Made by a program: the position numbers and the translations under genes. From positions 1,860,001-1,924,000 of the forward strand of contig BSYQ01000014.1 in the NCBI GenBank assembly GCA_030272585.1: a DNA stretch of 64,000 nt, in the 5' to 3' direction. This DNA is from Bryopsis sp. KO-2023 (lineage: Eukaryota; Chlorophyta; Ulvophyceae; Bryopsidales; Bryopsidaceae). A model generated the notes under the pieces. It did no database searches, had not been told where the DNA came from, and worked only from the letters and a program-made list of their open reading frames with translations. Every line of letters starts with the position of its first letter. Position 1 is the stretch's first letter. Below, one piece after another: positions 11,054 through 55,400 of this stretch.

Positions 11054-11379
11054 GTTGTTACTGGAAGAACGAGCCTTCCGCAAAAAAAGTCTTACAACAA
11101 AAAGACAACCCCGAACTCCCGTTCACAGACTTTCCTTCCCGACTCACTCAACTCTCACACTTCCTCCACTGACTCATACCTCGTACTTCTAACGTAAAAC
11201 CCCTACTGCCATGGGGCCTCTCACCCGCACTGACCAGTCGATTCAACACATTTGACATCGCTCTCAGAGTCAAATCGTGTGGTAGTACTTTCATTAGAAA
11301 TGAGTGTCCGTTGTGTGGATTTGTTGATGTGACGCTCTTATGTCTGTCTTTCAGTACTTGTGTTCTACCCGGTCCAACA
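11053..11379 (-). repeat. 5' LTR
   Basis: 327 bp, TG...CA termini, the promoter-side LTR because the pol frame runs leftward from it. Its last base is also the A of the first ATG of the gag-pol frame. Confidence 0.95.
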
Positions 11380-19000: not shown

Positions 19001-19799
19001 GAGGATCCCCATGACTGGGATGAATTTCCAGAACCCGTGATTTGATGGAGTGTTTTCGTTTGGTTTAGGCGGTGGGGATTGAGACGGCCAGAGTTTCAGA
19101 CAGTCCTCCAGGAAGCCCATGCGAACTCCAGTGCAATGCTGATAGTGATGTCCCCACTCTGGGGATCTCGAATGCAAAGGCTGGCTGTGGAGTTTTGGAC
19201 AGTGGCAATCAGTTTCGAACCTGTGTGTTGACCAACGTGACGGAATGTGAGGGGGTTATTCCAGATGAAAACCTTGTCGACTTCAAAGACAGGCCAGAAT
19301 TTGGAGCTCGGTGCAAGGTGTGTGTGATTTTCCTGGGTCAAATTTGGCGCTTTTTCTGTTATTCATGAAGGATGCAACCAAGAAAACAATTTCCCCTAAA
19401 AATGTCCTTCTTTTTGAAAATTATTGATAGTTTTCGAGGGGTTTTTTGTGTCCTCACTCTTTTCCCTGCAGATCATTGTGATCAACTCAAACGTGAGGCT
19501 GTCAGACACCAAATTCGTGGAAAACACCGCAGACGGCTTCGGAGGAGCTGTTTTTGCCACAGAGGAGGGAAACACCCTGACGCTGGGGAAAGGGGTGGAG
19601 TTCTTGAGAAACACAGCAAGAAACTCGAGAGGAGGGGCCTTGGCCATATCGGAGGGAGCAACCCTAGTCGCTGAGGAAGGGATGATAGTCAAAGACAACG
19701 TAGCGGGGCTTGATGGTGGGGGTATCGTTCTGCAGGTGAGAATTGACTGCCCTTTTCCTAGAGGTGTTACAATTTTGGGCCTCAACTGGACTGCAAGGT

Positions 19800-19839
<40 letters not shown>

Positions 19840-22800
19840 GATTGTTGTTGTTGAACGAAACCAAGGCTTGATGCTGATTGCTTTCAGGGAACTGCTGGTA
19901 ATTTGACCCTCCAAGGTGCATCCTTTACTGGGAACATGGCAGAGATGGGGATTGGAGGAGCCATCGCATCAGTTAGCGTGGGGTCCAATATCGCCATAAC
20001 AGGGCAGGGCACTTTCCGAAACAACGAAGCCGCGGAAGCAGGTATTTGGATGTTCTCTTTCCCCTAGACGAAAAAAAAATGATGCCGGAAGGTATGCCAC
20101 TTTTTTTTTCTAACGCTCAAAACTGTGGATGCGTCCACAATGCATTTATCTTCTTGGGCTGCCAAAATCGTGAGTTGTGAAGGAGAGGGGGGGGGGGGGT
20201 TCAATGGTGGGGGTTATGTGATAATTGACCACCATTCGGTGTGTGGGTAGCATTGAGAGTGGGGTGTGTGGGTGTTGTCTGTCATAGGTGGTGCCATCGG
20301 ATGTTTGAGTGAGGACTCAAATATCACTATGTCAGACGTCACTTTCGTCAACAATGATGCGGGGTTAGCTGGGGGAGCACTCCATGCTAAGGTACACGTC
20401 ACACGTTTCGAGCAGCCTCTGGATTTTTTAGCACAGTATTTTTAACAGAGGCTGTGCCAGCCTGGTGTCGCTACAGCGCTTGGTGTTTCTTGTGTCTGTC
20501 CTTTTTATTTTTCCCCCCCTCACCTTTTGGGGTAGGATATATCTTATCGATTTGCTCCCTCCCCTTTTTTGCTCCAGACTGTATGCTTCATTTTACTAAC
20601 CTTTCTCGACCGGGATTCTCCTGCCTCTCGCCACAGTTTTCTTTGTTGCCCAGGAATCGTTCTGCATGGATTGATGTTTTTTTCTCCTTTGTTCTGCTGT
20701 GCAGTCCCCAAGGGGAAAGGTAGGTATCAACCTGGTAGATGTGGCCTTTTCCAAAAACCGCATCAAATCGGCCCCTGGTATGCCCTTGCTGGGAAAAGGG
20801 GGTGCCATTGCTCTGGAGGGTGCTGCCATCACGTTATCCATATCAGGAAAAGCCAACACATTTGCTGACAATTCAGCCAGGGAAGGGGGAGCAGTCAGAC
20901 TCTTTGACACCCAAAAAGCTGATATTTCGCAAGCATCTTTTACAAACAATGTGGCCTTGAGTGGTGGCGGGCTTCATGCATCTTTCACCAAAAAATCCAG
21001 GGACATAGCCGTCAACATAACGAATGTAGATTTCACAGGGAACAAGGGGTATATGGGAGGGGGTGTAATGGCCGATGCTAGAAGTGCAAATTTATCCTTC
21101 GTTCCGGACGATGGGCTGACAGGGGCAGTCTTTTTGCCATCAACTGCCTCACAACGGCCACAAGTTTCATTCAATGAGGTGCAGTTCAATAATCAGCAGG
21201 TCATAAAAGATGGGGGGGGCATCTTCTTGATCGATATCCATGCAGTAGGGCAAAATTGTGATTTCGAGGGTAACAGGGTTGCAGTAGAGTTCGATGGTGG
21301 AGGAGGGGCAGTGAAACTGGCTGATTTCGCCAGCTTCGACCTGACCTCGGGGAGATTCACCGGAAATCGAGCCGTCGATGGGGGGGCAGTGTTCGTTTCC
21401 AACTCGTTTTTCACAGGCAAGGATCTGAATTTCAAAAAGAATACCGCCCTTGGGAGGGGTGGCTCCATAGCTGTCGAAGGGTCCTCATCGGGGGATGCAA
21501 CCATGGTAAATCTGGTAGACAGCAAAATCAATGAGAACATTGCGGAGTTCGGAGGTGGTATCTTTGCAAACGTATTGGAATCAGAGGGCATCAATGATGT
21601 GTGTCAGTCTGTGGACGACCTATCGATCGAAATCGAGGAGTTCGCCTTCGTCCAAAACGTGTTGGCAGAATCCTGTCGAAATCAGCAGCAGTTCTCCATG
21701 GCGGCGAGCCTGTCTGTCATCCTGAACAGCACGCTGATCTCAAACAACAAAGCCAATCGGGCTGGCGGTGGGATTTTCACTGGGGACCCAACTCTTCTGT
21801 GCGCTTGCTGTGGATCGAAGTGCACCAGCTCGTGTCAGTCCCTCGGAGTGGAATCGGAACTCGAGTTGGAGGGAGCGTGTGCAAAATCCTGGGTGGGGAA
21901 CTCGCATGGGAGTGGGGGGTATGGTCCGATTATGGCCTCGTTTGCATCCAGTGGGGAGATCATTAAGTCGGATGGGCACCCGCTCCAGGACAATGAGGTT
22001 TTGGACGAAGCTCACAGCAGTGGGGAACCGATGGCCTCCCTTACGGTTCGAATGAAGGATTATTTCGATCAGGTGGTCACTGTCACGAGGCCTAATGTAT
22101 TTGCCCGGGTGACTTCAGAGTCCAGCGGAGGGCAAATCCTGTCTGGCCAGGTGGACACCTTGGTGGTAAGAGGTGTCGCTGATTTCAATGCCACGATCGT
22201 TAGTGCCTTCCCAGCCGAATACCAAATGAGAATGAGCTTTCCAGGCATAGAGGTGGAGGATATACCGTTCAGAGTGACGGTCAGGGAGTGTGTCCGTGGG
22301 GAGAATCCAGTGGAAGGGCTGTTTTCGACCTCCTTCAGTTGTCGTCAGTGCGAGGCCAATAGTTTCAGTTTCAGGCCGAGTCAGTCATGCACATCGTGTC
22401 CAACATTCACCACTTGTGACACCAGGACCCTGACACCCATCGATGGCTACTGGCATTCTTCGTCCTGGTCGCAGTCCATTCACAAGTGCCTGGTGGATAT
22501 CGCATGTTCCTATGGCAGTCGCTTTGATAAGTTAAAGAACCAGTCGGAGGATTCAGGGGCAGAACCTCTCCACTTCGGAAATAACACGGCTTATAAGCTT
22601 TGTCGCACGGTACGACCACACTACAAGCCACGCATCATTCGCCACTGCTGAGATGCAAGCTTGTGTTGTCACGGTCCATTTTTGAGTAGCTATGTCCTTT
22701 CGAGTTGTTCCCTTGGGGAAATAAGCGAGCGCATTTTTTTTTTTTTGTGAAAAAGAGGGTGGTGTTTTTTTTTGGGAGGGGGCCTGCTAAAAATCCTTGT

Positions 22801-24517
22801 TGTTCTGATGACAATGCAGGGCTACGAAGGTCCGCTCTGTGGGAGCTGTGGGAAAGGCTATGGCCGTGTGAGAGCATTCGAATGCCAGGAGTGCCTGTCA
22901 AAACTCAAGGCCATTCCTTTGATGATAGTGATGGTGCTTTGGATTGTCATCATTGTTGGCTTCATTATTCGAAATGCCCTCAAAGCAGGGACACCTGCCA
23001 AGGCTCGCGTCGAATCCAGAAGGGAGGAGGGGCCCCTTGAAAGTCCTGGAAATCATGGTCCTTCTCAGGTCATATACCTTGGAGTGAACCCTGCCACCGA
23101 GAATGCCAAGGTAAGATACCAACTTGTTTTGAAAAGCTGTGTTTACCTTCGTGTGTGCAGAATGTTGTTCTGCCCATAGGAATTCCATTATCCTGAGTGT
23201 GTGCTGCGTTTTTATGTAGATTCTCATCAATTTCTTGCAAATCACAAGCATTGCTCTCGTCATCAACGTTGAGTGGCGAGAGGAAGTGCGGCGAGCTCTG
23301 CAAATTGGAGGTGGGTTATAGATGGCATGAGAATAGGAATACAACTGGTGTTGATTCAAATGTGCGTTCGTCGGATTATTTTTTCGCCTCTCCAGGTGGC
23401 AATCGCCTTCTCCTGTTGTGGTTTTGCATGAGACTGTGAATGGTTTGGAACGTCCACAGATATCGCCTCCGGTTTCTCTGCCAATGGTGGCATTCTTTCC
23501 TTCGATTGCCCCCTCGAGGAGGACAGCGTACCTGTATCGATTCGTCGCACCATCCTCGCGGTGCTGTTGCCACTTGGTATGATGGTGTTTCCATGCTTCT
23601 TTTTGTTGAGAGGCTATTTTAACAGAACCAGGGCGCGGTTCTTCTACCGCCAAGCTTTTGTCTCAGTTCTGGTGGTGGCCTATGTGTTCTACACCGGAAT
23701 GACGAAGCGCGCGTTGAGAATCTTGCACGGAGTGTCAGTGGACTCTTTTGAGTCCGACACCACGTTTGCCCACGGGAGGTTCTGGGCTGACGACACCAAA
23801 ATAAGGTACTTTGAAGGCGACCACGCGTATCTGGCCACCCTGTTGGGGCTTCCTGTTCTGCTTTTCTATTCCTTCGGCTTTCCGGGCTACCTCTTCTACG
23901 TTCTCTGGGGAAACAAGGAAAAACTGAACGACGAAAGCTTTGCTAGAAGCTATGGGTTTCTGTACCGTGCGTATCACATCAAATACGTATACTGGGAGAT
24001 TGTTATTATGGCAAGGAAGGCGCTCTTGGTCGGCGTCGTGGTGTTCATCTATGAGCTTGGAGGGAACCTTCAGTCGGTTTTCGCGGTGATGGTGCTGATG
24101 GCGGCGCTTGTGTTGCACCTCATCTCCCAGCCGTACAGGGAGGAACTTTCCCAGATGAACCACAGAGAGACCCTCTCTCTGTGCGTTTCTGTCTACACAT
24201 ATTTGGTCGGAATCGCCTTCAACGACAGCCGACTTCCGGCGTGGTCGAAGATCATGCTTTCAGTCCTGTTGCTCGTGGCAATTATAAGTCTGGTCATATA
24301 TTTGTTGTGTGCGTTGGCGGCTGAAAGCGCACGCCACTTGAAAAGCGTTTTGGAGGAAAGGGAAGTTACCGTGCCGGAAAACGCGACCACCTGGCAGAAG
24401 ATGCGGCTGCTGGTGAATTACTATTGGTTCAGGGTCATGGACCGTTTCTGGCAGTTTACGGAGCACGGCATTGCCTGGAGCAGAGTCAAGAAGAGGAACC
24501 AAGAACCCAGAGTGTGA
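16077..24517 (+). CDS. Giant surface protein, Pmp-like beta-helix repeats plus multi-TM domain, copy 1
   Basis: Model of 1855 aa in 13 exons: 16077-16158, 16637-16898, 17130-17577, 17865-18152, 18551-18922, 19069-19317, 19472-19735, 19888-20041, 20288-20391, 20705-22609, 22820-23110, 23220-23310, 23460-24517. All phases agree. Residues 1-28 are a signal peptide (LLLAAVFVALRLGAV). About 1200 residues follow with scattered FxxN and GGA(I/V/L) motifs, the pattern of polymorphic outer membrane protein (Pmp) repeats that fold as right-handed beta-helices. A Cys-rich stalk comes next (CRQCEANSFSFRPSQSCTSC, later YEGPLCGSCGKGYGR). The last roughly 450 residues hold a membrane helix (PLMIVMVLWIVIIVGFIIR) and several more, ending in a charged cytoplasmic tail. 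Such beta-helix plus multi-TM proteins occur in algae and other protists. The role is unknown; a surface receptor or channel is a guess. Confidence 0.82.
19802..19836 (+). repeat. (CA)n microsatellite in an intron
   Basis: About 17 uninterrupted CA units inside the intron between exons 7 and 8 of copy 1. The paralog lacks it at the same intron. Confidence 0.95.
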
Positions 24518-25677
24518 ATAAAGGGGGGAGATAGTGGGCAGGGTTGGTGACGGTAGGAAGAAAGCAAGTCTTCGGTTAGTTTCACGCTCTTTTATATTTG
24601 GTGGGAAACAGGCAAAAATTGAGAGGCGCTTGTTTCACATGTTTTGCTTTTTATCATTTATCGTGTTATTTCTTTTACAGATATTGTTTGTGTGCTGGGT
24701 TGGTTGAACAATCCAAGGGGTCGCTCGACGGGGGGGTTCGTAGGTGGGGGTTTTGTACGATAATGGATGCACTGTAGTCAGAAGTGAGGGGGTGAGAGGA
24801 GAGGTTTTTGCAAAAACTGGGTCAGTGTGGGTTGTTCATCAAGATACCACTTAGAAATGGGGGCGATTCTGTTTTTCGTGTATGTGTGACCATGAACGGC
24901 TGCTCGGCGAGTAGGAGCTTCATATGTGTAGAAAATATTGAATGATGTGCAGTCTCGTGCGGCCACACAAACTCCTTTGGTGTTTGGGTTCTTCGGAAAC
25001 TTCTCCACTCTGAGCTCAATAAGATGGGCATATCAATAGCCTGCATATGCCAGCACTTGTGTGTTTCTCGCTGTTTCTTCATCGACCGTGAAACAGATCT
25101 GTTTCATCTAGATGGATTGTTTGTCGTCATGAAAAACATTGATTCGCGCGCGTTCCCGTGAAAAACATCGCAAAAACCTCACAGTTCCAAAAGTCCACAA
25201 GTCCAGTCTCTCTTGTTATGACTTTCGGTACCTGGGCATGCATGGTGTAATATTGGTCCGTCTGGAGCATGTAATTTTTGGTTTGGTTTGGAGCGAAGTT
25301 TTTTCATTGTTTGGCAGCAGAGGTGCTCAATCTTCAAACAAACAAACACACATCAATTACATTGCTCAATCTTCACGGAGCGTTTTGAACAGCGTTCCTG
25401 TATTATAGTACAGTTTTCCCTTGTTAATGGGTAGAACGGGGATTTTGTGATTGGATGCGTGTTGAAGTGCTGTTGAGGAATAAAGAATTCTCAGCCAACC
25501 AACCAGCTCTGCAGAAATCACCAGTTTCTGATTGTCCAGCAATGCCAGGCGTGACGAAAGATAGCAGTCTGGAGGTGGTTCTCGGGTGAGTCCGTGGTCA
25601 ATAATAACAAGGCGTCGTTGAAAACTCGTTGTTCTACCAAAGGATGGGCTCGTGAAACCTTCCTTTCTCTTTGCTAG
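24518..25677. other. Intergenic, no gene resolved
   Basis: 3' flank of copy 1 and upstream region of the DUF2419 gene. A first exon of that gene probably lies here but I could not place it. A minus-strand open stretch at 25366-25692 has no recognisable content. Confidence 0.4.
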
Positions 25678-29011: not shown

Positions 29012-32000
29012 ATGGTGTCGCAGCGAAGAGCTGTGCATGGAAATAGGAAAAAGTGTGGAACAGTTTTGTCGCACGTCGCGATATTTCTACTCTTCGCTGT
29101 GATCCTCGTCGCGCTAAGCTCTGGCGTTGTCGGTGAGCCTCGGTTAGTGTGTTGATCGGGGTGCCCCGACGCAAAGTATTGATAAGATGATTGAAACGAA
29201 GAACACGCGAGGGACACCTCGCCTCCTAAGAAACAATTAATCTGGCTTCTGGATCTCCCGAGCGGAACACTTTCGTCGACGCGGATGCGAACGAGATTGG
29301 TTCCGTGTCTGTTCGACGGTTCTGGCCGTCTGGCAAGGAGGTTCCTGCTGGCGGCAGCAAAAGTGTGGAAGTCAGAACAATTTTCTGTGTGCTTGTCATG
29401 TAATCTGTCGTTATGTCGTACTCGCGCGAAAAAAATCACACTGGATCAACACGCAAAGCCGAGAAAACCAGCCCCTGTTATTTTCGATAGGATATACTCC
29501 AGCGGAACTCGGGAAAAGAGCCTGAATGTTTTTACATACCTTGTGAATTTCATGCAAGCGAATGGTGGCTTTCCGAGCCAATCGAATCCTGACAGTGACA
29601 TCTACAGTAACGCACGTGTTGTCTTGGTATTGTTTCAGGTGCCCAGAAATGTGACGCTATTTTTGAAGGGGGTGACTTCTCAGTCACTCGAGCAGTATTG
29701 GACGAAGTCAAAGATGATTTTCAGATGCTCCTGGACTGTGTGCCCCAAAGGGGAACACTTGCAATCGAACCAGGACTGAACATCAAACCCAGCACCACGG
29801 TGGTGGTTAAAAATGCCATCGAAGTGACATCCAGAGGGAAGGGAGAAAAGCGTCCAGTGCTTACTTGTCCTGATGTGGGGCAGCCACTTTTTGAAATCAG
29901 GTCTGCTGAATTTCTCAGACTCTCACCCTCCTCCTGCAACTGAAAAAGCGCCCCTTTCTGGAAAAAATGGACATTAGATTTGTTTTCACCTTTAGCTCAC
30001 TACTTGTACATTCCTTGGTAGCGATTGGTTGATTGGGATTGGCATACTGAACTGACTGTCACAGCGTTTTTTTTTTTTGATTGGGAAATTGATCGATGTT
30101 GGTAAATTTGTCAATTAGGCACTTTGCTGACCTGGGTTCAAATCCTGATCAAGTCATTTGTGGATTTGTGCTGTTCCAGCTCTACTGGAGTGGAGCTGAA
30201 GAACTTCGTTGTGTCAGATTGCATGACTGACTCTAATGTCACATCGGCCATCGTGGTCGACATTGAAAAAGACAAGAACTCCAAAACCACATCCTTGGAG
30301 ATTAATGGAGTGGATTTCGTCAATAACACCAACTTGAATGGAACGGCCAGCATTTTCATTAAGTCTGCCGGATCCTTGTCATTGGCCAAAGTTGTTTTTT
30401 CTCGAAATGTGGGGTTAGAGACTGGGGGGTTGTATTTGCATTCGGCAGCCATGCAGGTGAATGTTAGGGATTGCGTGTTTGAGGAGAACCGAGCAAGGTT
30501 TTTTGGCGGACAAAGTGAGGGGAAGGGGGCGGTCTTGTTTCAAGATGTTCCGGCATTTATTGCAGTGACCGGGTCGAGGTTCTTGAATAATTTTGCGGAG
30601 AGGGAGGGAGGGGCCATGTACATTGAGGTGAGTGCTTCGAGTTGTGGTGTTGCGTGTGGGGGTTATTCTTTTGGAATTTTTTTTTCAACACCATCTAAGC
30701 CACAACGAAAATTAACCGAAGAAGGGGGGAGGAGCATTTACAGAAAACGATTAATAGTGTCGATAATCACGTTCATAATATATAATAATAAAAATAATAA
30801 TGTATAGTCACTTGAACAAAATACGTATCTACATATTTTCCCTTTTTTTCGTTTTTTTGTTGATTTTCTTATTCACGAAGATCAGAATCTCTTGAGGGGA
30901 AAAAATAATTAACAAAAAAAGAAAAAAAACTTTTTTTTTTGGCTTTTTGCAGGGGGAGCCTCCGGCAAGTGGATTGACCATAACGAACACTGAATTTCAC
31001 AACAACACAGCAGCGCAAGGATCGGGTGGGGTGTTATGGGCAAGCGGCCCGACATTCGAATTGACTGTGAAAAATTGCACATTCACGGAAAACAAGGCAA
31101 GGGCCTTTGGGGGGACCATCCATCTTCGGACATCCATACGGTCCGGCGAAATTAAAATAGAAATCGAGGATTCGGTTTTCGAGAAAAATATTGCGCTCGC
31201 TGGAGGGGCGCTATGGGCACTGGTAATCGATGTTTTCTTCCTCATATTTTCTTGGAATTCATTTTTATGCCCCACTTTTTCGTAAATTTGAAGAAACAGG
31301 ATTTTTTTTTTGTGCCCATTTGGGAAGAAACACTTGATATCAGTTTTTAGAAAAATTCAGGTGGCTGAATGCCATGTGAGTGAAAAGGTATGCATAGGGG
31401 AGCTGTCAATTTTTATTTTTTTTTCAAAAATAGACCACACTTTCATGAAATTGATGTGCAGCTTTGTCTATGAAATTTTTTTTTTCACTTCCATAGGGTT
31501 TGATTTTTTTTTTTTCCTGCTTACCCCCCCCACCCCCAAGAAAAAAAAATTAAGAAACTTAAATTATCGTTTGAAAAGACATTCCTTGCCGAAGGACTTC
31601 CTATTATGAGCCCCACTGTCGGGAAAAAAAAATAGTAATAAAAAACTGGAAAACAATAATGGACGTAGGATTTTCTAGTGTTTACTTATTTTTTGGTTTG
31701 AAGGCAAACATTCAATGGAGAATGGGCATCTCAATTTCCAACAGTAAGTTTTTAAGGAACGAAGCCTTGTTGCAACATACCGGGCCAGGAGAAATATTTG
31801 AACAGGCCATTAGTCAATCCACTACCTCCGCCGGCACGGGGGGTGCCATAACATGCATTGGAGTCTCCGTCGACCTCAAATTCAAGGGAAATCTGTTTGA
31901 AAAAAACACCGCCATTGGCCTGGGGGGCGTGGATCAAAGGGGATCCAAAGGAGGGGCGATTGCCATTACGGACTTACAAAACGTCACAATAACAGACACC

Positions 32001-35000
32001 GTTTTCAGGGAAAATTCCGCCATAAATTTGGACACATTAGGGCATGAGGCGGTGGGGGGTGCCATTTTCTTAGCGGTGAGCTAAGATTCTCCACAGTGGA
32101 TAAACCTACTGTTCTTTGCCCTTCATTGTTTTCAATTTTTTGGTGTTTTTTTTTCTTTTTTTTGGCGGGGGGGGTACTATACACAGTCATTAATTCCAAG
32201 ATGTGACAGATTAAAAAAAAAGAAGAGAAGAAAAAAGTGTAATTGTGGAACAGGCATCGTGATGGATTTTCATGGGGAGGTCCGATCCTTTGCTTATGCA
32301 TTCTCAGACAGGAATCATGGACACTGAGTTTTGTTTATTTTTTGACTAGGCAGGGGGGATCAAAGCGGCCAGGGTTTCGGACAGCCCACGGGGGAGCAAA
32401 TGCGAACTCCAGTGCGACTCCAGCAGCACCACCATATTGAGTACAACTGTAGATGTTGTGGCCGGGTGCGGAACTTTGGACGGCAATGGCAGGAGAATAT
32501 GCGTGCTGACTAATAGAACCGAGTGTGAGGGGGTCATTCCTGAAGAGAATTTGGTCGGGCTCGGGGAAGAAGAATTGGCAGCCACCTGCAAGGTGGGATG
32601 GATTTGCTCAGGGGCGACACCAAGAGTGGTTCTCTTTTTAAAAGAAAAAGAAAAACAGGGGCAGGGGTGTGGAGCCATAGAACTTGTTCAAGTTTGTGGA
32701 GGAAAGAGAATTCGAAAAGAATAAATCCTACTGGGCAGCCAGAAAAACCCAATGAACATCATCAGGGTAACTGCATTGGGCTGTTTTCAACAGATAATGA
32801 TAATTAAAGTGTTCTTATGCTTTTCAAAAAATTCCCACACTCTTGAATCATGATCTCAAATTTCCTGTAAATTTCCTCTTTTCTGCCTTCAAAAAACATC
32901 ATTCAAGTAATCTCTTTTCTTTTCTTTTTTTTACCTTCATTTTTTGGCCACTCTTTTCATGGCAGATCATTGTGATCAACTCAATCGTGAGGATGTCAGA
33001 CACCAAGTTCCTGGACAATACTGTGGATGGCGCCGGAGGAGCCATTTTTGTCACAGAGGAGGAGGGAGCTACCCTGAGGCTGGGAAAAGGGGTGGAATTC
33101 CTGAGAAACACAGCCAAAAATTCGTCAGGAGGGGCCATGTTTCTACAGGATGGGCCATGTCTATTCGCAGAAGAAGAGATGATTGTCAAACACAACGTAG
33201 CATCGCTCCACGGGGGGGGTATCGTTCTGGAGGTAAACAAGATATATATATGTGGGGGTCAACATGGATTTGATTTTCATTGGATCATGCACTCAGCATT
33301 GCAACATGCATGAATAATCTGGTTTGAGAGTTTTCCTTTCTCCAGGGAGCTTCTGCTGAATTGACCCTTCAGGGTGCATCTTTCGAGGGGAACAGGGCAG
33401 AGAGAGGAAACGGTGGTGCCATTACAGTAATGAGCGTTGAGTCCAATGTGACCATAACTGGACCGACTGCCTTTCGAGGCAATGAAGCCGGAGACTCAGG
33501 TTCTCAGATTGCATGCCTGCTGAAAAACACCCGATAGATGGCACTTTCCATGAGTATTTCACACCATCCACCTGATGCCGACCTTCCCCCCAAAAAATCA
33601 TAGAAAAATGTCTGTTTGACAGTGGGAATGCTGGCAGACTTGATCGTTTTCTTGGTTTTTCTTACATCATAGGGGGTGCACTTGCATTCTCGAGTGAGGA
33701 TTCAAGTGTCAAGATCACAGATGCTACATTTTTGCAGAACAAAGCTTCGACAGCCGGGGGAGCGCTCCATGCTGGGGTACGATCGACCCCTGTTTCTGAA
33801 ATGTCCCATCACCTTCGAAACATTACTTTCAAAGGAAAACGGAAAGGTGTCCTTTCCCCTCGAGAGCATATGAAGCAAATCTCGACCCACTCGCATTTAA
33901 AAAAAAATAGACTTTTCTTTTGTTGTGGTGTGCAGTCGACGAGGGGAACCGTGAAAATTAACCTGGCAGATGTCTTGTTTTCTGAAAACCACATGAAAGC
34001 AGGACCTGATCTTCCCGTGCTGGGAAAAGGAGGTGCAATTTCTATGGAGGGTGCCGCCGTCATGTTATCCATCTCAGGAAAAGCCAAATTTATGAGAAAC
34101 TCGGCATGGGAAGGGGGAGCGGTCCATATTGCTGATGCTAAGAAATTCGATGTTTTTAAAGCAGTCACTCTGTTCCACAGAAACGAGGCCGGAGAATCAG
34201 GTGTTTAACATAACAGCTGCATTTAGCAGGTTGCTGTGAACTGCCAAGGAAGAGAAAACACACATAGTGTCCAGGGAACTGCAAATGCTTATTAGAACCC
34301 CAACAAAAAAACAAAGTATCAATGTGCATATATATATATATATTCCGACCTGCACCTTCCCTCCACATATATTACTGTCGCAGCTTTGCTTGCGAATGAA
34401 ATTATCTTTTATGGAAATTTACCATTCTCTTTCAATCTTTGTAGAAAACCTCTGTTCACACAAATATGGTCGATATGAAATGGGGGAGTGCTCGCCATGG
34501 TTAAAATTGTCGGAATATAGAGTCTTTTTCGCCAATTGACCAGCTCCTCTTGTTTTTTCAAGCACCCATAAGCTGGGCCTTTTTTTGGGGGGGATGTTTG
34601 ATCCTCGCAGGCGGTGCCATTGCATGTTTAAGCTTCGGCTCCAATGTCAGTCTTGCAGACGCCACGTTTTCCGACAACAGAGCAGCACTGGTTGGGGGTG
34701 CCATATATGCCAAGGTACATCATCCACTCCTCCCTGAGTAAAACTGCCCCAAACATGACCATTTGAAAAACAAGAAAGATGGAGGTGACTAGCATCCACC
34801 CAAAGCACCCCTATCACACACAGGGTTGTTGGTTCGCCTATTCATAAAGCAGCCAATCTTGGCGTTGGATGCCCAAGTTTTCCTGAGAAAGGTTGCAGTT
34901 TTTTCGTTTAATGCTTTTCAATAGGTTTTGAATTCCTCCCTGTTTTGCTGCCCTGCAGTCCACGAGGGGAGCTGTGAACATCGACTTGAAAGATGTCTCA

Positions 35001-38000
35001 TTTTCCGGAAACCAGATAAAACCAGCCTCCAGGTTTCAGTTGCAGGGAAAAGGGGGTGCCATTGCTATGGAGGGTGCTGCCATCGCGTTATCCATTTCAG
35101 GAAAAGCCAACACATTTGTTAACAATTCAGCCAGGGAAGGGGGCGCCATCCAAGTGTTCAACACCAAGAAAGTCGATATTTTACAAGCATCTTTTACAGA
35201 CAATGTGGCCTTGAGTGGTGGCGGGCTCCACATCTTTTTTACCAGAAACTCGAGCGACTTGGCCATCAATATAACAAATGTGGATTTCATTGGGAACAAG
35301 GCATACATGGGAGGGGGGCTACTGGCCGATGCCAAAAACGCAAATTTTGCGGAGGATAAGCTGACCGAGGTGGTGTTTTTGCCACCATATGATCTCAAAC
35401 CCCCACAGATTTTATTGAACAGGGTGCGCTTCCATGGGCAGCAAGTTTTGAAGCATGGTGGAGCCATGTTTTTGATCGATGTTCATGCTGCTGGGGAAAA
35501 CTGTGATTTCCAGGATAACAGGATTGAGGAGGGGTTTGGCGGTGGAGGAGGGGCAGTGAAACTGGCCGATTTCGCCAGGCTTGATCTGACCTCGGGAAGA
35601 TTCACTGGAAATCAAGCTGTCGATGGTGGGGCTGTGATTGTTTCGAAGTCTTTTTTTGCTGGGAAGAATCTGGACTTCAGCAAGAACACCGCCTTCGGAA
35701 AAGGTGGCTCCATATCGATTGAAGGGCCCCTGCAAGGGGAAGGCAGCATGGTGACACTGGAAGACAGCAGAATCGATGGGAATGTTGCTCAATTTGGTGG
35801 TGGCATATTTGGTGATGTGCTGGAATCGGAGAGCGTGAAAGCATGTCAGTCTGCCAGCCAGGCATTGCATCAAACCCTTGATTTGGACTTCGTTCAGAAC
35901 ATGGTCGTGGATGCATGTCAGACTCACCAGCAATCCTCCCTGGCACGGACCCTGTCCCTCTTTCTGAATAACACCGTTATTTCAAACAACAAAGCCAAGA
36001 AGGCTGGGGGTGGGATTTTCACTGGAAACCCCAGTCTGGTATGTGCCTGTTGTGGAACGAAGTGCTCCGAATCGTGCCGATTGATTGGGCTGAAATCGGA
36101 CTTTGGGTTTAGCAGAGTATGCTCAGAATCTTGGCTGGGAAACTCACATGGGAGGAGGGGGTATGGTCCTACTGTGGCCTCGTTTGGTTCGACTGGGGAA
36201 ATCATCAAGTCAGACGGGGCTCTGCTCCAGGAAAACGAGATTTTGGACGACTCTCACAGCAGCGGGCAACCCATTGACTCTCTGAAGGTCAAAGTGAAGG
36301 ATTATTTCGATCAGGTGGTCGCTATCAAGAGGCGCAACGTCCTAGCTCAAATCACATCGGTATCGACGGGGATTCAAATTCTGTTCGGCCAGGTGGATAG
36401 CCAAGTAAAGAAAGGCGTCGCCAATTTCAATGCCACAATTGTCAGTGGCTTTCCTGGGGATTATCGAATGAGACTTAGTTTCCCAGGTCTGGAGGTGGAG
36501 AATAGGCATTTCAGAGTGAGGGTCAGGGAGTGCGGCCGTGGCGAGAATATAGTGAGAGGACAGTTTTCAATGCCCTTCACTTGTCGCCGGTGCGAGCCCA
36601 ATAATTTCAGTTTCAGGCCGAGTCAGTCATGCAAACCATGTCCAACATCCACCACTTGTGACACCACAACTCTGACGCCTATCGATGGCTACTGGCATTC
36701 TTCATCCTGGTCGGAGTCCATTCACAAATGTCTGGTGGATGTTGCATGTTCCTACACCAACCGCTCTACTATCTTGAGGATGGAGTCAGAGCGCTCAGGC
36801 CAAGCACCGCTCCACTTCAAAAATCAGCCGCTTTGCCGTGAGGTACTGCAACAGCATTACGAATGATATCCATGCTGAAGTCATGGCAGAATATCTTGGT
36901 TGATTTATTACATGTAGATTGTTTTTTCTCCTATATGACTATTGAAATTGAAAGTTACTGTACACACGACGAAGAGGCCGAGTGCAGCCCGTTCAAGGAA
37001 ATATGTTACAGTCTGACTCAGAAAGAAAGCACCGTATCACCACAATGTCTTTTTCTAGCTCTCTGCTAAACTAAGAAGGAACTGATCCGACTACCTCCAG
37101 AAAAAACTGCTGAAAATGCGATATATGTCATGTGTGTATAGTAGGGCTACGAAGGTCCGCTGTGTGGGAGCTGTGCGAAAGGTTACGGTCGTGTGCGAGC
37201 GTTCGAGTGTGAAAAATGCTTTGCAAAAGGCATATCCATTCCTTTGATGGCAGCAACAGTGGTGTGGATGCTCATATTCGTTGGCTTCATTATCCGAAAT
37301 GCCCTCAAAGCAGGCACACCAGCCAACACTCGTGTCAATTCTGTAAGGAACGACAATCTGGAATCTTCCCCAGCCATATACCTGGGAGTGAACCCTGTCA
37401 CCGAGAATGCCAAGGTGAAGTACTATCGACTTGACAGTAGGATTGTATGTCTGCCAATCAGCTGCGGAGCTTGTTCTTAGTGGCAGCTAGAAGCCAATGC
37501 AGCAGTTGGGGAATAGCTAATAAGCCAATTTGGCCGTTGAGAAATTCGGTTTCAAAAACGCTTGGCGAATGTTTCGGCAGTCAAGTTCGGCGTCCGGGAA
37601 AAGAACTTCCTGGCACGCATAGTTATAATGATATAATAATAATAATATTTGCCATAATTCAATTTTCTTGGTTCATTGATTGTGAGGACGCAAATACGCG
37701 ACTCTGCGTACACAACATCGCCATACTGTGAGTGCATCTGAATTCATCCAAAGAAAGCCCCTTGAACATTCACATTAGTCGGTGAACAACCACATTGCCT
37801 CTTGAATCACAAATATCGACAATCAACAACCACCCTGAAACATCCCCCCCCCCCCTTCAGATCTAACCAAAATTGCCACTAAAAGGCTGTAGAAAATCCT
37901 TAAAGGAACCTGAGATATGAATTGAACGCGTGAGTGTGTGGGCTTTGTTTCGCTGCAGATTCTCATCAACTTCCTGCAGATCACCAGCATCGCCCTCGTT

Positions 38001-39671
38001 ATCAACGTCGAATGGCGAGAGGAAGTGCAACGAGTTCTGCAAATAGAGGGTGAGTTTCCGAGCACTGGAAAGAACCAGAAGAAAGCCTCCCACTGAAAAT
38101 TGCTGAAAATTGTTTCTGTTACCACTGTTTGAATCCCCCCCCCCAAGAAGTCGATCGTCAAGATTCGAAATCAGCATCTGTCTGTCTGCACATTGCTCAT
38201 AGTGAAACGCGCATCGACTACCATTTTAGTTCTCTCACAAGTTCATCCAGGCAGCAATAGGAAAATCAATCAGATAATGTTCCTATGGGTTGACAAGATA
38301 GAGGAGGAGAGGGCTGAGCTCACCTTGCCCCCCCCCCCCTCCCACCACAAATACGCATCGTTCACAAACTTGTGCTTACAGTTCATCTCATATAGAGCGA
38401 CAATCAACAGACCACATCGTACAGAAACAGAAAGAGGCATCCAGAGCTTTGGTGTGTTGTGTGTGGTGAAATCGTCCAAGCTGTGTACGTGCAAGAAGTG
38501 GGGGGGGGTGCTGTGGGGCAAAAAGAGGTGATTAAAATGATGAGTGCCGGAAAACACGCCTACAGCCACTTCTCTGCAAACAAACATGTGGTTTGACGAG
38601 TGCATCTGTCGAACATCCGCAGATCTGGCCTCCGGTTTCTCCACCAGCGAAAGCATTCTTTCCTTCGATTGCCCGCTCGTGGAGTCCAGCGTCCCTGTCT
38701 CGATTCGTCGTACCATCCTGGCGATGCTCTTACCATTTACTATGATCGTGCTCCCAGCATTCTTTGCGTTTAAGGGCTGCTTCGACAAATCAAGATCACA
38801 GCTCTTCTACCGCCAAGCGTTTGTCTCAGTTCTGGTGGTGGCCTATGTGTTCTACACCGGAATGACAAGACGTGCGTTGAGAATCTTGCACGGAGTGTCG
38901 TTGGATGAATGCGGTGCAAAGGATTCGTCGGTCTTGTTTGCCCAAGGGAGGTTTTGGGCTGACGACACCAAAATAAGGTACTTCGAAGGAGACCACGCGT
39001 ATCTGGCCACCCTGTTGGGGCTTCCTGTGCTGCTTTTTTACTCCTTCGGCTTTCCGGGCTATCTCTTCTACGTCCTCTGGGGAAACAAAGGAAAACTGAA
39101 CGACGAAAGCTTTGCCAAAAGCTATGGGTTTCTGTATCGTGCCTACCACAATAATTACGTTTACTGGGAGATAGTCGTCATGGCAAGGAAGGTCCTTCTG
39201 GTCGCAGTCGTTGTGTTTGCTTTTGAGCTGGGAGGAAACCTTCAGTCGGTTCTGGCAGTGGCGGTGCTGCTGGCGGCGTTGATTTTGCATCTGCACTCTC
39301 AGCCATACAGGGAGGAGCTTTCCCAGATGAACCACAGAGAAACCCTCTCTCTGTGCGTTTCTGTTTTCACGTACCTGGCGGGAATCGCCTTCAACGACGA
39401 TCGACTGCCCGTGTTGTCTGAGATCCTTCTGTCATTCCTGCTGGTTGTGACAACGATTGGTTTTGTCGTTTACTTGGTGCTCGCGTTGGCGGCGGACAGC
39501 GCACGCCACTTGGAAAAGCTCCTCGAGGAGAGGGAAGTGCCCATTCCTGAAAACGCAACCACCTGGCAAAAGTTGTGGCTGCTGGTGAATTTCTATTGGT
39601 ATATGGCGATGGACTATTTTTGGCACTGTGTGGAGCAGGGCCTTACCTGGTGCAAAGGCAAAAAGCCCTAA
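29012..39671 (+). CDS. Giant surface protein, Pmp-like beta-helix repeats plus multi-TM domain, copy 2
   Basis: Model of 1967 aa in 15 exons: 29012-29132, 29639-29900, 30180-30627, 30953-31222, 31704-32075, 32350-32592, 32966-33232, 33346-33499, 33673-33776, 33936-34200, 34611-34714, 34959-36842, 37145-37414, 37959-38049, 38623-39671. Intron positions and phases match copy 1, and the second, third and fifth exons have exactly the same length. The signal peptide ends VILVALSSGVV. Pmp-like repeats, the Cys-rich stalk (CRRCEPNNFSFRPSQSCKPC, YEGPLCGSCAKGYGR) and the multi-TM tail are all conserved. Two additional exons (33936-34200, 34611-34714) duplicate the module that in copy 1 spans exon 9 and the start of exon 10. 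The QNG1-like gene lies between the paralogs. The frame is intact, so both copies look functional. Function is unknown. Confidence 0.82.
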
Positions 39672-40642
39672 CAAAAACACGCAGAAAGAAAGAAATTGAG
39701 AGTTTTTTCGGCTTGGCGGGTGGAAAAGGGAAGAGGGGTTATAGAACATTTTCGTCCTGTGTTCGCGGGTGAAACCAAGGCCCTGAAAAAAAAAAAAGAA
39801 AAAAGAAGATAAGCCATTCCCCAGGGAAATGGTGTTCTCAACTCACAACTACACGTTTTTAGCGTTCGCCTATTTTGCCTTTCTGGTGGTTCGATTGCTG
39901 GTGTTGCGAAATCTGGAGGCCAGCTGAATAAATCAAGGGGTTGTTTATTCTCAGGAAGAGTACTGAGAAAAAAGTTTTGTTTTGTTTGTTCGAATCTGAA
40001 ATTGTGTCAATTGAATGTGAGGTTTTTCATTTGCAATTGCGCAATTGAAGTGGTTTGGGGTGGCGCTTGTTTGCCACTACGCAACTTTTATACCCCTCTT
40101 GTGTTTCACAACCAACACAACCAAGCACCAGGGTGCTTTGCGCCTCAAGAGTGAGGAGAAAGACATATCCCTATGAATAGGGATTGGCATCTGCCATGGT
40201 CATACGATATAATGCATCCTCCCTTAAGCTGGGATTCATTGAGAGCTAGAGCACCCCTCAAAAAAAGTGTGTTGCTGTGTACTTTTTTCTTGGTAAAACA
40301 CAAGGAAAGAGCCACACCCAAGGTCACAGATGTGGAATTTGGATGCTGTTTTGTGCTTGAGAAGAGGCAGCATTGCACTCATGAATGTGTTCGAAATTGA
40401 TCTTTCAATTTGTTGTGTTGATTTTTCTCGCAGACACCTGACACCCTAAACAGTGTCACGTCAATCAAAAGGTGTAAGCAAAGCGAGACGGGGGTCAAAT
40501 ACGGGTAAAATGGGGTGGATCCCAGCGGCCTTGTTTGTGTCCATCCAGGAAAGCAGCACTGGTCAAGGAGGTTTGGACGCGGAGGACGACGAGAGAAGGA
40601 TCGTTGCTTTGGGTTTCGAATTTTACGCTCGAATCCACAGCA
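39672..40642. other. Intergenic, no gene seen
   Basis: 3' flank of copy 2 and upstream region of the expansin-like gene. Moderately AT-rich, without coding frames that have recognisable content. The stretch 40453-40642 is open in one frame but most likely 5' leader. Confidence 0.5.
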
Positions 40643-49487: not shown

Positions 49488-52400
49488 TCAGCAGGGCTCA
49501 GGCCCTGCTGTCAATTCCACTATAGGCCCCTGTACCATCCGGGGCCTATATCGCAGCTCCTCCAGAGAGGCGGGGACAACCCTGTGTGTCTCCACCTGGT
49601 CCAATAGAGGACCCCTAGAAGTCCCCTGAGCAAGATTTTCCCAGTCGATGTCCTGGAAAAACTCATGCCCCTGCAGCTCCCTCGCCGATGGTCTATCCTC
49701 CTTTTTGACCTGCAAATGAGCATAGTGCTGTTCGATTTCCCATCCGAATTTCAGTGCTTTTTCTGCTGGTGCTTGATTTAAGTTGAAAACAGCTCATTTC
49801 ATACAATCCAATAGAAAAGGGTGAATAGCACTAGTCATTCTGCAGCTCAGATTTTTTTGACTCGCTCTTCCCACCTTGAACACCGCAGCGAAGAAGCTGC
49901 AGGCCTCTGGGCTGCGGTCCAATATGGAAGACACCCTCCATATTGCGTTGACCCACCAGGGGTCATGGACTCTTTCATCCTGGTGGAGAGGGGGGAAGGG
50001 AAAAGTGCCTACCAGCATGCGATACACCAGTACCGCATAACTCCAGACATCTGATCCCATGGTCTCGACCCCACCATCAGCCACCTCCGGTGCCTACAAG
50101 ACAAATCCATTTTTTGTTGTTGTTCCAGAGGAAAATTCTCTTCTCCAGTCACTGAATCGCTGTGGCTGTCATTTCTGATCAGAACTGGAAAACGGCAGAA
50201 TTATCACTTACCATGTAGAGTGTACCAGCTTGAAAGTTTTGGGCTGTGGGGGATCTGGTGGCCCAGCCAAGATCCCCCAATCGAATGTTTCCATCCAGAG
50301 AGACCAGAATGCTCTCCAGGGACAGGTCCCTGTGGATGATGTCCGCCTCGTGCAGCGTGGTCAATGCAAGCAAGATTTGAGCTGCAATGATCCTGAGACA
50401 CTATGGGAAATTCACCCCTGTGCGACCAAACTTGTAATGTCGCAGTGGAGTGTACAGAGTCGCGCACGCGACGTCAACGGTCGCACCCCTGTGCGCCCAG
50501 GTAGCCACCCATATTCGACCTAAAATTTAAAGTCGCACAGAGGTGACGTCTTTGATGCAGTCCCCAGTCGCAGAGACAAAAAACAGTCGCACCTGTGTGC
50601 GACACAAGTGTGTGCGACCGAAATATTGAGGTCGCAGAAGCTTTAGGTCGCAGGGGTGTGCGACCAGGTAGCCACCCATATGCGACCGAGACAAAAATCG
50701 TCACAGTTAGGTCGCAGGGGTGTGCGACCAGGTAGCCACCCATATGCGACCGAAACAAGAATCGTCACAATTAGGACGCAGGGGTGTGCGACCAGGTAGC
50801 CACCCATATGCGACCGAAACAAGAATCGTCACAATTAGGACGCAGGGGTGTGCGACCAGGTAGCCACCCATATGCGACCGGGGAGAAAGTCGTAAACATT
50901 AGGTCGTAGGGGTGTGCGACCAGGTAGCCACCCATATGCGACCGTTGGTTGTGTTGTGCGACTCGAATAGAGCCGTGGGAATTGAGTCGCACGGAGGTGC
51001 GACCAGACAACCGAAAAAACAACATTAAACTCATATTACATATCATTCCTTCCAACAATTCCCACCCAGAGCAAGGCAGAACATTCGTTAAAATTCATTC
51101 CAATTCCCATACAACTTCACCAGTGTATTTTTTTTCAATTTCACTGGCCCCAAAGTGGCCCTAAATTTGGCCGTTTCATCCAGTTGTGGCCCTTTTGTGG
51201 CCCCAATTTGTCCAAAAAAAATAGAATGTGGCCCCAACCTCAAAAACAAAAATTACAAGGCCTGATGTTTATATAGCATTTACTTAATGTTGTTGATTTT
51301 GATTTTTGTGGAAACTCGATTGATTTCTTGGATGTGGCCCAGGCCTTACAAACTTCGGGGGAATGTGGCCCTTTTGTGGCCCCAAATTCATCTTCTATTA
51401 AAACGTTTTGGCCCTTTTGTGGCCCCAAAATTTGCCATTCTGATTTTTTTGGGGGCCAAAATGGGCCAAAAGGGCCACAATGGGCCACAAAAATATACAC
51501 TGAACTTCACCATTCCAATCTTTCTCGATCAAAACACCCACCTCTCTTCCAATCTGAGTTTCTGTAGAAATTTTATATTCCCTGGTTCCAGCCAGTTCAA
51601 ACTTCTCAAAATCCATACCCCCCTCATCACACTTCCTTTCCCCACAGTGTAACCCCCCCTGCCACCCTTGATGCCCCCATCATACCACAGACATACCCCC
51701 TTCAAGAATAGGGAACCGGGGCAAACAGAGCACATCGGAATTCGTATCGTTATTTGCTCCCCACAACCGTGATTGCCGGCCACCTCTTCGGATCGTTGAT
51801 TGACTGCCCTTCATGCAGCTTTCCATTCTGACCACTGATACCCCTCCATTTTCTGAATACTCTGATTAGGCTGTGGAAGGCATAGGAAAACAAGAATTTC
51901 AGTCGACACTAGCTGAAATTTGGTGGAATTTCAGGCCACCAGCGTGTAGGCCTCTTCGAACAGGAAGCCGAGTATTAACACCGGAATGGCTGGGACGGCA
52001 TGTTGATAAAACATGTGATCTGCAGGCTCCCATTCCACAGCCAATTCTCGTAACATTTTGTCTTCTTCATCCAGGTCAGAATTCCCTTACAAAAATAACA
52101 AAAAGAAAAGGCTATCAGCGATGCATCCGTGGAGCTGGCCTGAACCACTGCACCACCCAACCCCATTTTTTTATCTATTCACATTCTTGTACACACCTCT
52201 TTCAAGCTTAGTCTGGCAGTTCAACTAACCATACGGTTTCTTCAGGCAAAACATTTCCAACTGTGAGTGAGTGCAATGCTTTTTCCTTTATTTCGTTGTT
52301 TTATTTTGAGTTGCTCCAAGGCTGAAAGCGTTGTGGATTCTACCCACAGTGGTGAATTAAACAAATGCAATTATCCCAATCGAACTGCTGGACAAAGCCG

Positions 52401-55400
52401 GAAAAAAAAAATAAAAAATAAAATAATATCTGAGGAAAACCTGAGAATGCTTTCAGCCAAAACAACTTACAGAAGCCAGCGAGACCGATCATCAACGCAA
52501 GTTGCTGTTTACGGAGCATCAATTTCCCGAAAATTTGCACATCGAAAGCCACCTCCAGCAAAATCAGCGAAAAGCAAATCCAGGTGATAAGGAAAACCAC
52601 GCCTTGAAGCACACCCCCAGAACAAGGGACAAAAACTGCGAAACACAGACGCACCTGAAACCAAGTCAAAAACACATGATAGGCGCCAAAAAAAACCCAA
52701 TTCTTTCATGAGCGAGCATGTGAAAAAATTGCAAGCAGCTTCCTGTTGCCCTTTCAGATCCTTGATTATGGAGGGTTTCCGCAGCTGCTTGCCATTGGCC
52801 AAACTTTGTCCAATGCACAACTGTGAATTCGACTTTTGAAGTAGGTGTTGATGGCAGAAAAAATGGAATATACACACACACACAATATTTCCAGGAAGGG
52901 CATAAATTTTCAGCAGACAGTGACTGAGCTGCTACTCACTTGGATCGCGTGGACAAGCGTGACTAATAGATTGGAGCGGAGCCTCATCCAGCTATAGCTT
53001 TTCAGGGAAACTATTCCAGCCAGGCTTAATCCCCATAGGACAAGCGGCAACGGAATCATGTGCCAAAATGCAATTAGAAACGGAGTTTTCACCAGCCGAG
53101 CGCATCTCTGTCGCAAACAAAATAAAGCCACTCTTCACCTTACAGCGAAAGGCTTGTTTTTTGGGATTGCATGTTCCTATCTTCCTTCTTGCAATGATGA
53201 TTGTCACTTTTTTTCGCACTGAGAATTGTTATGTTTGCTTATTTCCAGGAACAGGCTGGAAGTCGAAGGGAAACAAAGATCAAAAAACGACACATATTTT
53301 GAAGCTTTTTCTGCAACAAAATACACAGCTGGATCTGCATCCTATCTTTCTGATTTTGCTTGGCTATAAGCAACTCCCAGGCCCCACCCCCCAAACATCA
53401 TTAATAAAATAAAACATTAGAAAATCTTGTTTGACAGGACACCCCCCCTCCCTCGTTTTTACCTTTTCCCAGTTTTTTTTCAATTTGATCAAAGAGGGTT
53501 TCTTACTTTTGGTTTTTTTATTTTAAACCATAATCAGCTTCCCAATTACAAACCAAAACAATTACCTCCAGCAGCACCAGCCCAGCGGGTTGGCAGGCAG
53601 CATACACAGCCAAGAACACGTAATACTTAGAGCCTTGAATCACTCGTCCCACTGCTTCAAAATCCTGGTCTTCCGCTTCGACACTCCCTTCCACTCCAAG
53701 GCCCCCCCCTTGCTGCAACTTTCTCTTTCATTCGTTCGGAGTTTTTCCCTTCTCAGCTTGCTCCTACAAAGCTTTTTGAAAGTAGTCCTGACCGGCTTTC
53801 CGCAGCGCCTCTCTTTCGGAGGCTTCGCCATCATTCGACTCCATTTGCAATCTGGCAAGCCCCCCCAACCACGGAAGCCAAGGAAAAATCCCTGACGAAC
53901 AGAGCCGCGTCTTGAAGCAGCTTTCTCGTGGGGGCGCTGCGACAGTAGGCGCTGGGCTGGAAGCAGGGTGCCGAAGAAAATGAGACCAAAACGTCGTATA
54001 GGTTTTATTGTTGCAGTGATTAGTCATATCGCTGCTGGCAACGGATTCTGGGGGGAAGAAGAAAAAAAAATACAAGTCGCACACGCTGTGCGACTAAAGT
54101 GAAAGTCGCACATCGTGTGCGACCTGTTTGTTTCCCGGTGCGACCTTATCAGTTCAGTCGCACATCGCGTGCGACCTGCTTGTTCTCCGGTCCCCGACCC
54201 ACCCTGACGACTGTGTCGTCGCATAAGAAAATGCTCCAATTTTCATCAGAGCTTTCAGAAGGGACGTCTGGGAGTCGAACCCAGATACGCCGAACGTCCC
54301 CGAAGCGTTAACCACTCTTTCGCTTCGTGGAAAGCGGCTTTGGCTTTCCAACCCTGTGCGACCGTATTTTCGCACGGTCGCACAGGGGTGGATTTCCCAT
54401 AGTGAGACATTCACACCAGTTCAACATCTAGCTGACCTTTAGTTTTCTTCAACACCAGTGTCAGTTTTCATGACAATCAACCAGCATCCATCTGGTGCAG
54501 CAGGGCTGGCTACACAATAGTATCCCCACACTCAGTGGACATAGGCTGCAACCTTGCTGGGTTTAAACTAGCAAGAGCAGCATCACACCTCAAGAACCAA
54601 AAGATGGCTCTTTAAGTCTATCCCCAAAACCATCCACTCCTTTCCGCACTTACTTGCAGGCCTCCAGCGTCACTGATGCGTCGTCCGCGAAATACGCCCC
54701 GAGTTCGCCTCCCGGACAGAATGCCTGAAGAAAACAACCGACGACTCAGACTCGAAGAAAGACCATGGCACATGCGTACAGAAAATCAAGTGTTAATCCT
54801 TAGGAACGATAACTCACCGTGAGAATAAAAATGCTGTAGGCGTCGCGAAAGCCGAAACCAGGAAGAAGGTAAGCGCATTTTTGGGCCAGGGAGGTGGTGA
54901 CAAAAAGCTCACACCACGCGCTCTTGATCGACTCCTGTGGACTCCACGAGGAAAATGGCACCATTTTCTCGTAGAAATGGTCACCTGTGCTGGGACAGGT
55001 GACCACCCTCCTGATGCCACTCGCAATGAACCTCATCTCACGTTGTGGGATGAGGTGCGCGAAGCTCTGCGAGGTGCAGGAATAAATAAACATCCAGACG
55101 TATAATCCATGCACCCATCCTAATTTTCGAGCACGACAGCATGACACTCACGACCCACACCTGTATGGTGAGCCGTGTCATCTCCTGCACCGAATTGCTT
55201 CGGTGGTGGGCTTGTATCGTCGGGGAGCTGGGCACGTCGTCATGAGCCGACCCTTGCGGGGGTTTGTCCTTCGCGACGACAGGTTCCTCGTCGCTCGTGT
55301 TCTCGGCTCCGCTCTCTTCCAGCCCCCCTTGCTGGTCGTTTTCGTCGACCACGACGTTCTCCTCCCTTCGCCGACGACGCCCATGGTTCAGGCGGAGCAG

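Follow-up and report, generated by a model that had tools for sequence, protein, structure and literature searches.

A CACTA transposon beside the intron 3 acceptor of a probable pseudokinase gene in Bryopsis sp. KO-2023 and its likely effect on splicing

We analyzed a 64,000-nucleotide stretch of the genome of the green alga Bryopsis sp. KO-2023 (contig BSYQ01000014.1, positions 1,860,001 to 1,924,000 of the forward strand; hereafter the window, in whose own numbering positions are given). A minus-strand gene in it encodes a protein with a kinase fold, probably a pseudokinase, and its third intron carries a non-autonomous CACTA transposon that ends three bases from the CAG of the acceptor. 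We assign a probability of roughly 0.6 to the reading that this element entered a pre-existing phase-2 intron and that lowered, mixed splicing is the likely result. The sequence itself shows the insertion onto a TCT directly before the CAG acceptor, the duplication, the frame, and the age order, with the intron first. On this reading, the spliceosome would now encounter the inverted end of the element where the native branch and pyrimidine stretch used to be; the host CAG would still be usable and would compete with a CATAG and a CACAG in that end and with stronger AGs farther inside the element, and the sheer length of the intron, in a family with short introns, would add to the mixture. The expected outcome is some correct mRNA together with frame-shifted, truncated, or retained RNA.

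The insertion and its host gene

The element occupies 50399..54404 (plus strand, 4006 bp) and is complete, bounded by 29-bp terminal inverted repeats that begin with CACTA and are 97% complementary over the 29 nt. The left repeat, CACTATGGGAAATTCACCCCTGTGCGACC (50399..50427, plus strand), lies just upstream of the acceptor in the transcript and carries both the CATAG and the CACAG; its inverted partner occupies 54376..54404 on the minus strand. This end sequence has two matches in the window and none in each of 100 shuffles. An identical 3-bp AGA target duplication flanks the element, with one copy on the exon 4 side (50396..50398, TCT in the transcript) and the other on the donor side (54405..54407). 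With these ends, this duplication, and a family of 15 other complete copies in the genome (91.1 Mb in 28 contigs), the CACTA-type insertion proposed in the first-pass annotation is borne out. Inside the left end, GTCGCACA/TGTGCGAC units, five of them in a 64-nt tandem array, make up the left subterminal repeats (50479..51003, plus strand), and all 17 window matches to GTCGCACA fall within the element, against 1.14 expected for the whole window. The right subterminal repeats (54076..54392) include a 19-nt local inverted repeat with the terminal repeat.

On the minus strand, the end of the element is followed by the TCT of the duplication, the host CAG (50393..50395), and the start of exon 4 at 50392. 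The element had been described as lying 3 bases from an AG acceptor, a distance that is right for the CAG trinucleotide but is 4 bases for the AG dinucleotide. The donor GT of intron 3, at 54653-54652, lies outside the element, which it precedes by 249 host nucleotides. The body of the intron prior to insertion (54408..54653, minus strand) comprises 246 nt, or 252 nt when TCTCAG is included, and its native 3' part is now 4 kb from the acceptor; with the element, the intron has grown to 4,261 nt.

Four minus-strand exons surround and follow this intron: exon 3 (54654..54724, 71 nt, with the donor GTAAGT from 54653), exon 4 (50212..50392, 181 nt), exon 5 (49875..50093), and exon 6, the last coding exon (49488..49709), which ends with the stop codon. 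They join in frame with a phase 2 junction between exons 3 and 4, and the joined sequence reads through to the stop codon, so that the earlier claim of a preserved frame holds if the host CAG is used. The joined 287-residue protein matches the Pkinase family with 109.5 bits and aligns to ribosomal S6 kinase alpha-3 (E value 2.5e-23) without a gap across the exon 3/4 junction. Active AGC-type protein kinases have the catalytic loop motif HRDxKxxN, whereas the loop encoded in exon 4 reads HRDLSLES. Two paralogs have HRDINMES and HRDINMDS, and in a third LRN replaces HRD. Because the catalytic loop has lost the usual lysine and asparagine, the sequences suggest a kinase family without normal phosphotransfer, and the gene is probably a pseudokinase, a status that could lower the cost of a damaged allele. 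A genome search with exon 5 listed eight further matches on contig C13 (E value <1e-17). Related kinase-fold genes form a local expansion there (2.75-3.01 Mb, 1.44 Mb, and 0.14 Mb), and all three catalytic loops that could be read in it are without the normal catalytic residues.

Intron 3 is older than the transposon because paralogs share its acceptor codon and phase. We compared it in four paralogs, reading 191-401 nt in each; in all four the sequence reads as an AG acceptor at that codon and in that phase (CTCCTAG/G, CTCCCAG/G, TTTCAG/G, and CCCACAG/A, the slash marking the junction), and no transposon was seen at the intron of any of them within the nucleotides read. Protein homology and these paralogs independently place the start of exon 4 at the codon that the first-pass annotation had chosen, after TCT and CAG, and, to the extent that sequence can show it, 50393-50395 is the right acceptor. 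For two paralogs, the donor also fell within the stretch read, giving introns of 157 and 159 nt; with the element, the window intron is about 27 times as long.

These comparisons also bear on whether the element created intron 3 upon insertion, as introners do. Its inverted ends, short duplication, and position at a splice site resemble those of DNA-transposon introners (PMC9860276). The donor, however, is host sequence well outside the element, and the same-codon acceptor is read without an element in each of the four paralogs compared. The insertion sites of the 16 complete copies, moreover, do not cluster significantly next to AGs that resemble strong acceptors: two of them lie within 6 nt of one, where 0.63 were expected (P=0.13, the cut-off for a strong AG having been chosen from the window site itself after it had been seen). 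We rejected this exceedingly improbable reading because of the paralog introns, which could be reconciled with it only if every paralog had gained its intron at that codon independently.

Acceptor choice with and without the element

We scored acceptors with a model built from sites for which either a pair of paralogous genes or protein homology gives support (24 used of 25 collected), at seven upstream lengths (5, 8, 10, 12, 15, 18, and 20 positions). With the empty site rejoined, the host CAG scores 7.40 bits at 15 positions, the highest of the AGs scored in the 252-nt intron and within the top 2.6% of the 7,406 AGs of the window. With the element in place, it scores -0.74 bits, below 23 of the 24 leave-one-out scores of the known acceptors. 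The end of the element brings in CATAG 8 nt upstream of exon 4 (3.42 bits) and CACAG 25 nt upstream (5.91 bits), both of which break the frame; exon 4 would then be joined from 50400 or 50417, respectively, and further candidate AGs inside the element lie 1992, 2243, 2715, and 2918 nt upstream of exon 4. These two end AGs, the greater age of the intron, and the abnormal catalytic loop were absent from the first-pass annotation, which had proposed that the element end may act as a working intron end or may impair splicing. The last 127 nt of the intron contain six AGs, and only the host CAG leads into an open frame, the other five giving an early stop; the AG at -96 keeps the phase but meets a stop inside the element. 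Among the 226 AGs of the long intron, four exceed 7.4 bits, all within the element, and three of these reach 10.0-11.3 bits.

Several observations weigh against impaired splicing. The fall in the score of the host CAG appears only in models that reach at least 12 nt upstream: the 8- and 5-nt models score it equally with and without the element, and the 10-nt model scores it about 1 bit better with the element. The ranking of its rivals also depends on the model, with CATAG ahead of the host CAG at 10, 15, 18, and 20 positions but not at 12, 8, or 5, and CACAG ahead at 12, 15, 18, and 20 but not at 10 or 8, with a tie at 5. The model itself comprises just 24 acceptors, some of them from one gene family. 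At 3.1% from its closest relative and with 36 private changes, the window copy may be old, and exons that nevertheless read as open would be consistent with functional splicing; this argument from age is softened if the copy is instead a diverged subfamily member, as it may be. There is also a precedent for precise removal, in that a 13-kb CACTA element in soybean is spliced out accurately with its intron, although at a lower level (PMC4219821). Since the score drop is absent from the short models, the case for impairment rests on positions 11 and beyond, and because the acceptor scores depend on model length, the evidence leans only moderately to impaired splicing.

At one extreme, the insertion could be neutral, the end of the element supplying a branch site and the host CAG serving efficiently as part of a complete 3' splice site. 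The insertion left this CAG and the three preceding letters unaltered, the 8- and 5-position models rate it a typical acceptor, the reading frame is open through exon 6, and the soybean case provides a parallel. We nevertheless regard neutrality as unlikely, given that the two AGs of the element end outscore the host CAG in the 15- to 20-position models and that the intron is 4,261 nt long as opposed to the 157 and 159 nt of the two paralogs. At the other extreme, correct splicing may be negligible and the gene decaying. The three element AGs that score above 10 bits, the two more near the element end, and the truncated protein expected from each of the five AGs other than the host CAG within the final 127 nt would fit a null allele. 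Exons 2-6 as read, however, contain no stop or frameshift, which is weak evidence at a private divergence of about 1.5%, and we consider complete loss of function distinctly unlikely.

The inverted ends might also pair with each other in the RNA, which would loop out the element, hide its AGs, and return the native branch region to the side of the host CAG. The predicted end-to-end duplex has 28 pairs and an energy of -53.9 kcal/mol, and both competing AGs lie within the stem, with the host CAG 3 nt beyond its edge. The one stem forced in the 4,401-nt RNA was this one, at a predicted cost of 2.9 kcal/mol out of -1543. The unforced minimum-energy fold, however, is predicted to be without the end-to-end stem. 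In it, the first end is bound mostly to the sequence right behind it (a local hairpin of -39.0 kcal/mol for 65 nt), the second end to other parts of the element close by, and the host CAG to the element stretch 51604-51613. Looping also has against it that local hairpins are the first to form while the RNA is transcribed and that loops of 4 kb are poorly handled by the energy model. We judge it very unlikely to operate here; if it did, the inverted repeats would act as an RNA clamp that restores the native distance from branch to AG, and a CACTA element beside an acceptor would be tolerated by this means.

A CACTA element at a splice site within an intron is a known kind of arrangement. In maize, the En/Spm family reportedly includes a dSpm in A2, said to have been described by Menssen et al. 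in 1990, that has splice sites at the element termini and acts as a novel intron. It shares with the Bryopsis element the CACTA ends, splice signals at or near an element end, and removal of inserted element sequence by splicing; it differs in that dSpm reportedly makes a novel intron, whereas the Bryopsis element sits in an existing intron beside a host acceptor. In the soybean case (PMC4219821), the 13-kb CACTA element TgmR* resides in Intron2 of a MYB gene and likewise has a 3-bp duplication and subterminal repeats. TgmR* lies near the start of its intron, whereas the window element lies at the 3' end, and the accurate but reduced splicing in soybean was measured on RNA, while the window case is read from genomic sequence. 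Introners (PMC9860276) are alike in having DNA-transposon ends and a duplication at a splice site but unlike in that they create introns, whereas the window element invaded an older one.

The uncommon feature is the exact place of the insertion, 3 bases from CAG. It constitutes a natural experiment on 3' splice-site choice, in which the final six host nucleotides of the intron are intact and everything upstream has been replaced by a transposon end. The case thus bears on how far the final few bases define an acceptor and on whether inverted repeats aid tolerance of an insert.

The CACTA family and elements nested in it

The end pattern has 36 matches in the genome at three or fewer mismatches, against none for a reversed control pattern. 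Paired by their coordinates, these matches give the 16 complete elements and 4 single ends. The 3-bp duplication, with the flanks paired by eye, is exact in 11 of the 16 and inexact in five (contig C2 at 6.69 and 7.60 Mb, C6 at 0.63 Mb, C13 at 1.06 Mb, and C14 at 0.99 Mb). Codon-usage scores around the 16 insertion sites overlap those of random window positions and are uninformative on coding context. The case adds a CACTA family with 16 complete copies, some of them 99.6% alike.

We aligned 14 complete elements of 2.3-5.3 kb, excluding two of 13.7 and 19.1 kb. Between the window copy and 11 of the 13 others the difference is 3.1-4.5%; for C2d and C2c, which either diverge or align poorly, it is 26% and 34%, respectively. 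No other aligned copy comes closer to the window copy than 3.1%, while every one of the other 13 has a relative within 0.4-2.0%. In 2,341 columns that are constant among the rest, the window copy alone has a substitution at 36 (1.5%), compared with 16 of 1,377 in C2d (1.2%), 17 of 2,463 in C6a (0.7%), and 637 of 2,618 in the outlier C2c. This count favors isolated copies, since a change common to a near-identical pair is private to neither. Either the window copy is thus an older insertion, or it is a lone, diverged member of a subfamily.

The longest stop-to-stop frame of the window copy encodes 149 residues; its two frames of at least 140 residues have no Pfam match, and no transposase was found in it. 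The matches listed by a genome search with Transposase_21 (tnp2) number two, and both fall at C12:548569-549374, which is not part of any of the 16 copies. By eye, the 13.7- and 19.1-kb copies, the second known from its two ends, hold retrotransposon-like frames. In the 13.7-kb copy, the 373 residues searched of a 672-residue frame have no Pfam match, and we did not take either long copy as a transposase helper. No helper element was found by the Transposase_21 search or by inspection of the frames of the long copies.

The window copy has itself received an insertion. A 382-bp hAT-type miniature element (51121-51502, plus strand) with short inverted ends, CAGTGTAT and ATACACTG, is flanked by an 8-bp duplication, AACTTCAC, at 51113-51120 and 51503-51510. 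All 13 other aligned CACTA copies have the empty site, with a single AACTTCAC and no insert, which indicates that the miniature element landed inside the window copy. At least 25 similar stretches occur elsewhere in the genome, a count based on the 40 candidates scored out of 319 first-look candidates for the whole 3-kb query.

The right subterminal region also contains a tRNA-like stretch (54261-54330, minus strand), with related stretches at loci L040 and L042. It has a box-B-like GGTTCGACTCC, a T-arm, and a 7-bp GGGACGT/ACGTCCC stem, without a full cloverleaf; the box B is retained in 12 of the 14 aligned copies (all except C2d and C2c). At L042, the T-arm is present and one stem pair is A-T instead of G-C. 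A tRNA in the element was considered and rejected, as ARAGORN reported none at the three loci and the Rfam scores lay under the curated cut-offs.

Two further loci show irregular or variant ends. Copy L051 (G000:C6:631780-635730) ends in TAGTC instead of TAGTG, and about 840 nt past it a second CCCATAGTG stands beside a CATC like that at the left flank of the copy, which gives the look of a duplicated or interrupted right end. Locus L061 has, near its positions 2680 and 8221, ends such as CACTATGGGAAGTCGCGTTCTGTGCGGGGT and ACCCCGCACAGAGCGCGATTTCCTATAGTG, which suggest a second, related CACTA family.

Other genes of the window

Elsewhere in the window, two tandem paralogous genes at 16500-24600 and 29600-39700 contain repeated GGAI/GGGI-type motifs resembling those of polymorphic outer membrane proteins and have matching exon blocks. 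On the minus strand, 5042-11122 forms a single open frame of 2026 residues that, by its look, resembles a retrotransposon polyprotein.

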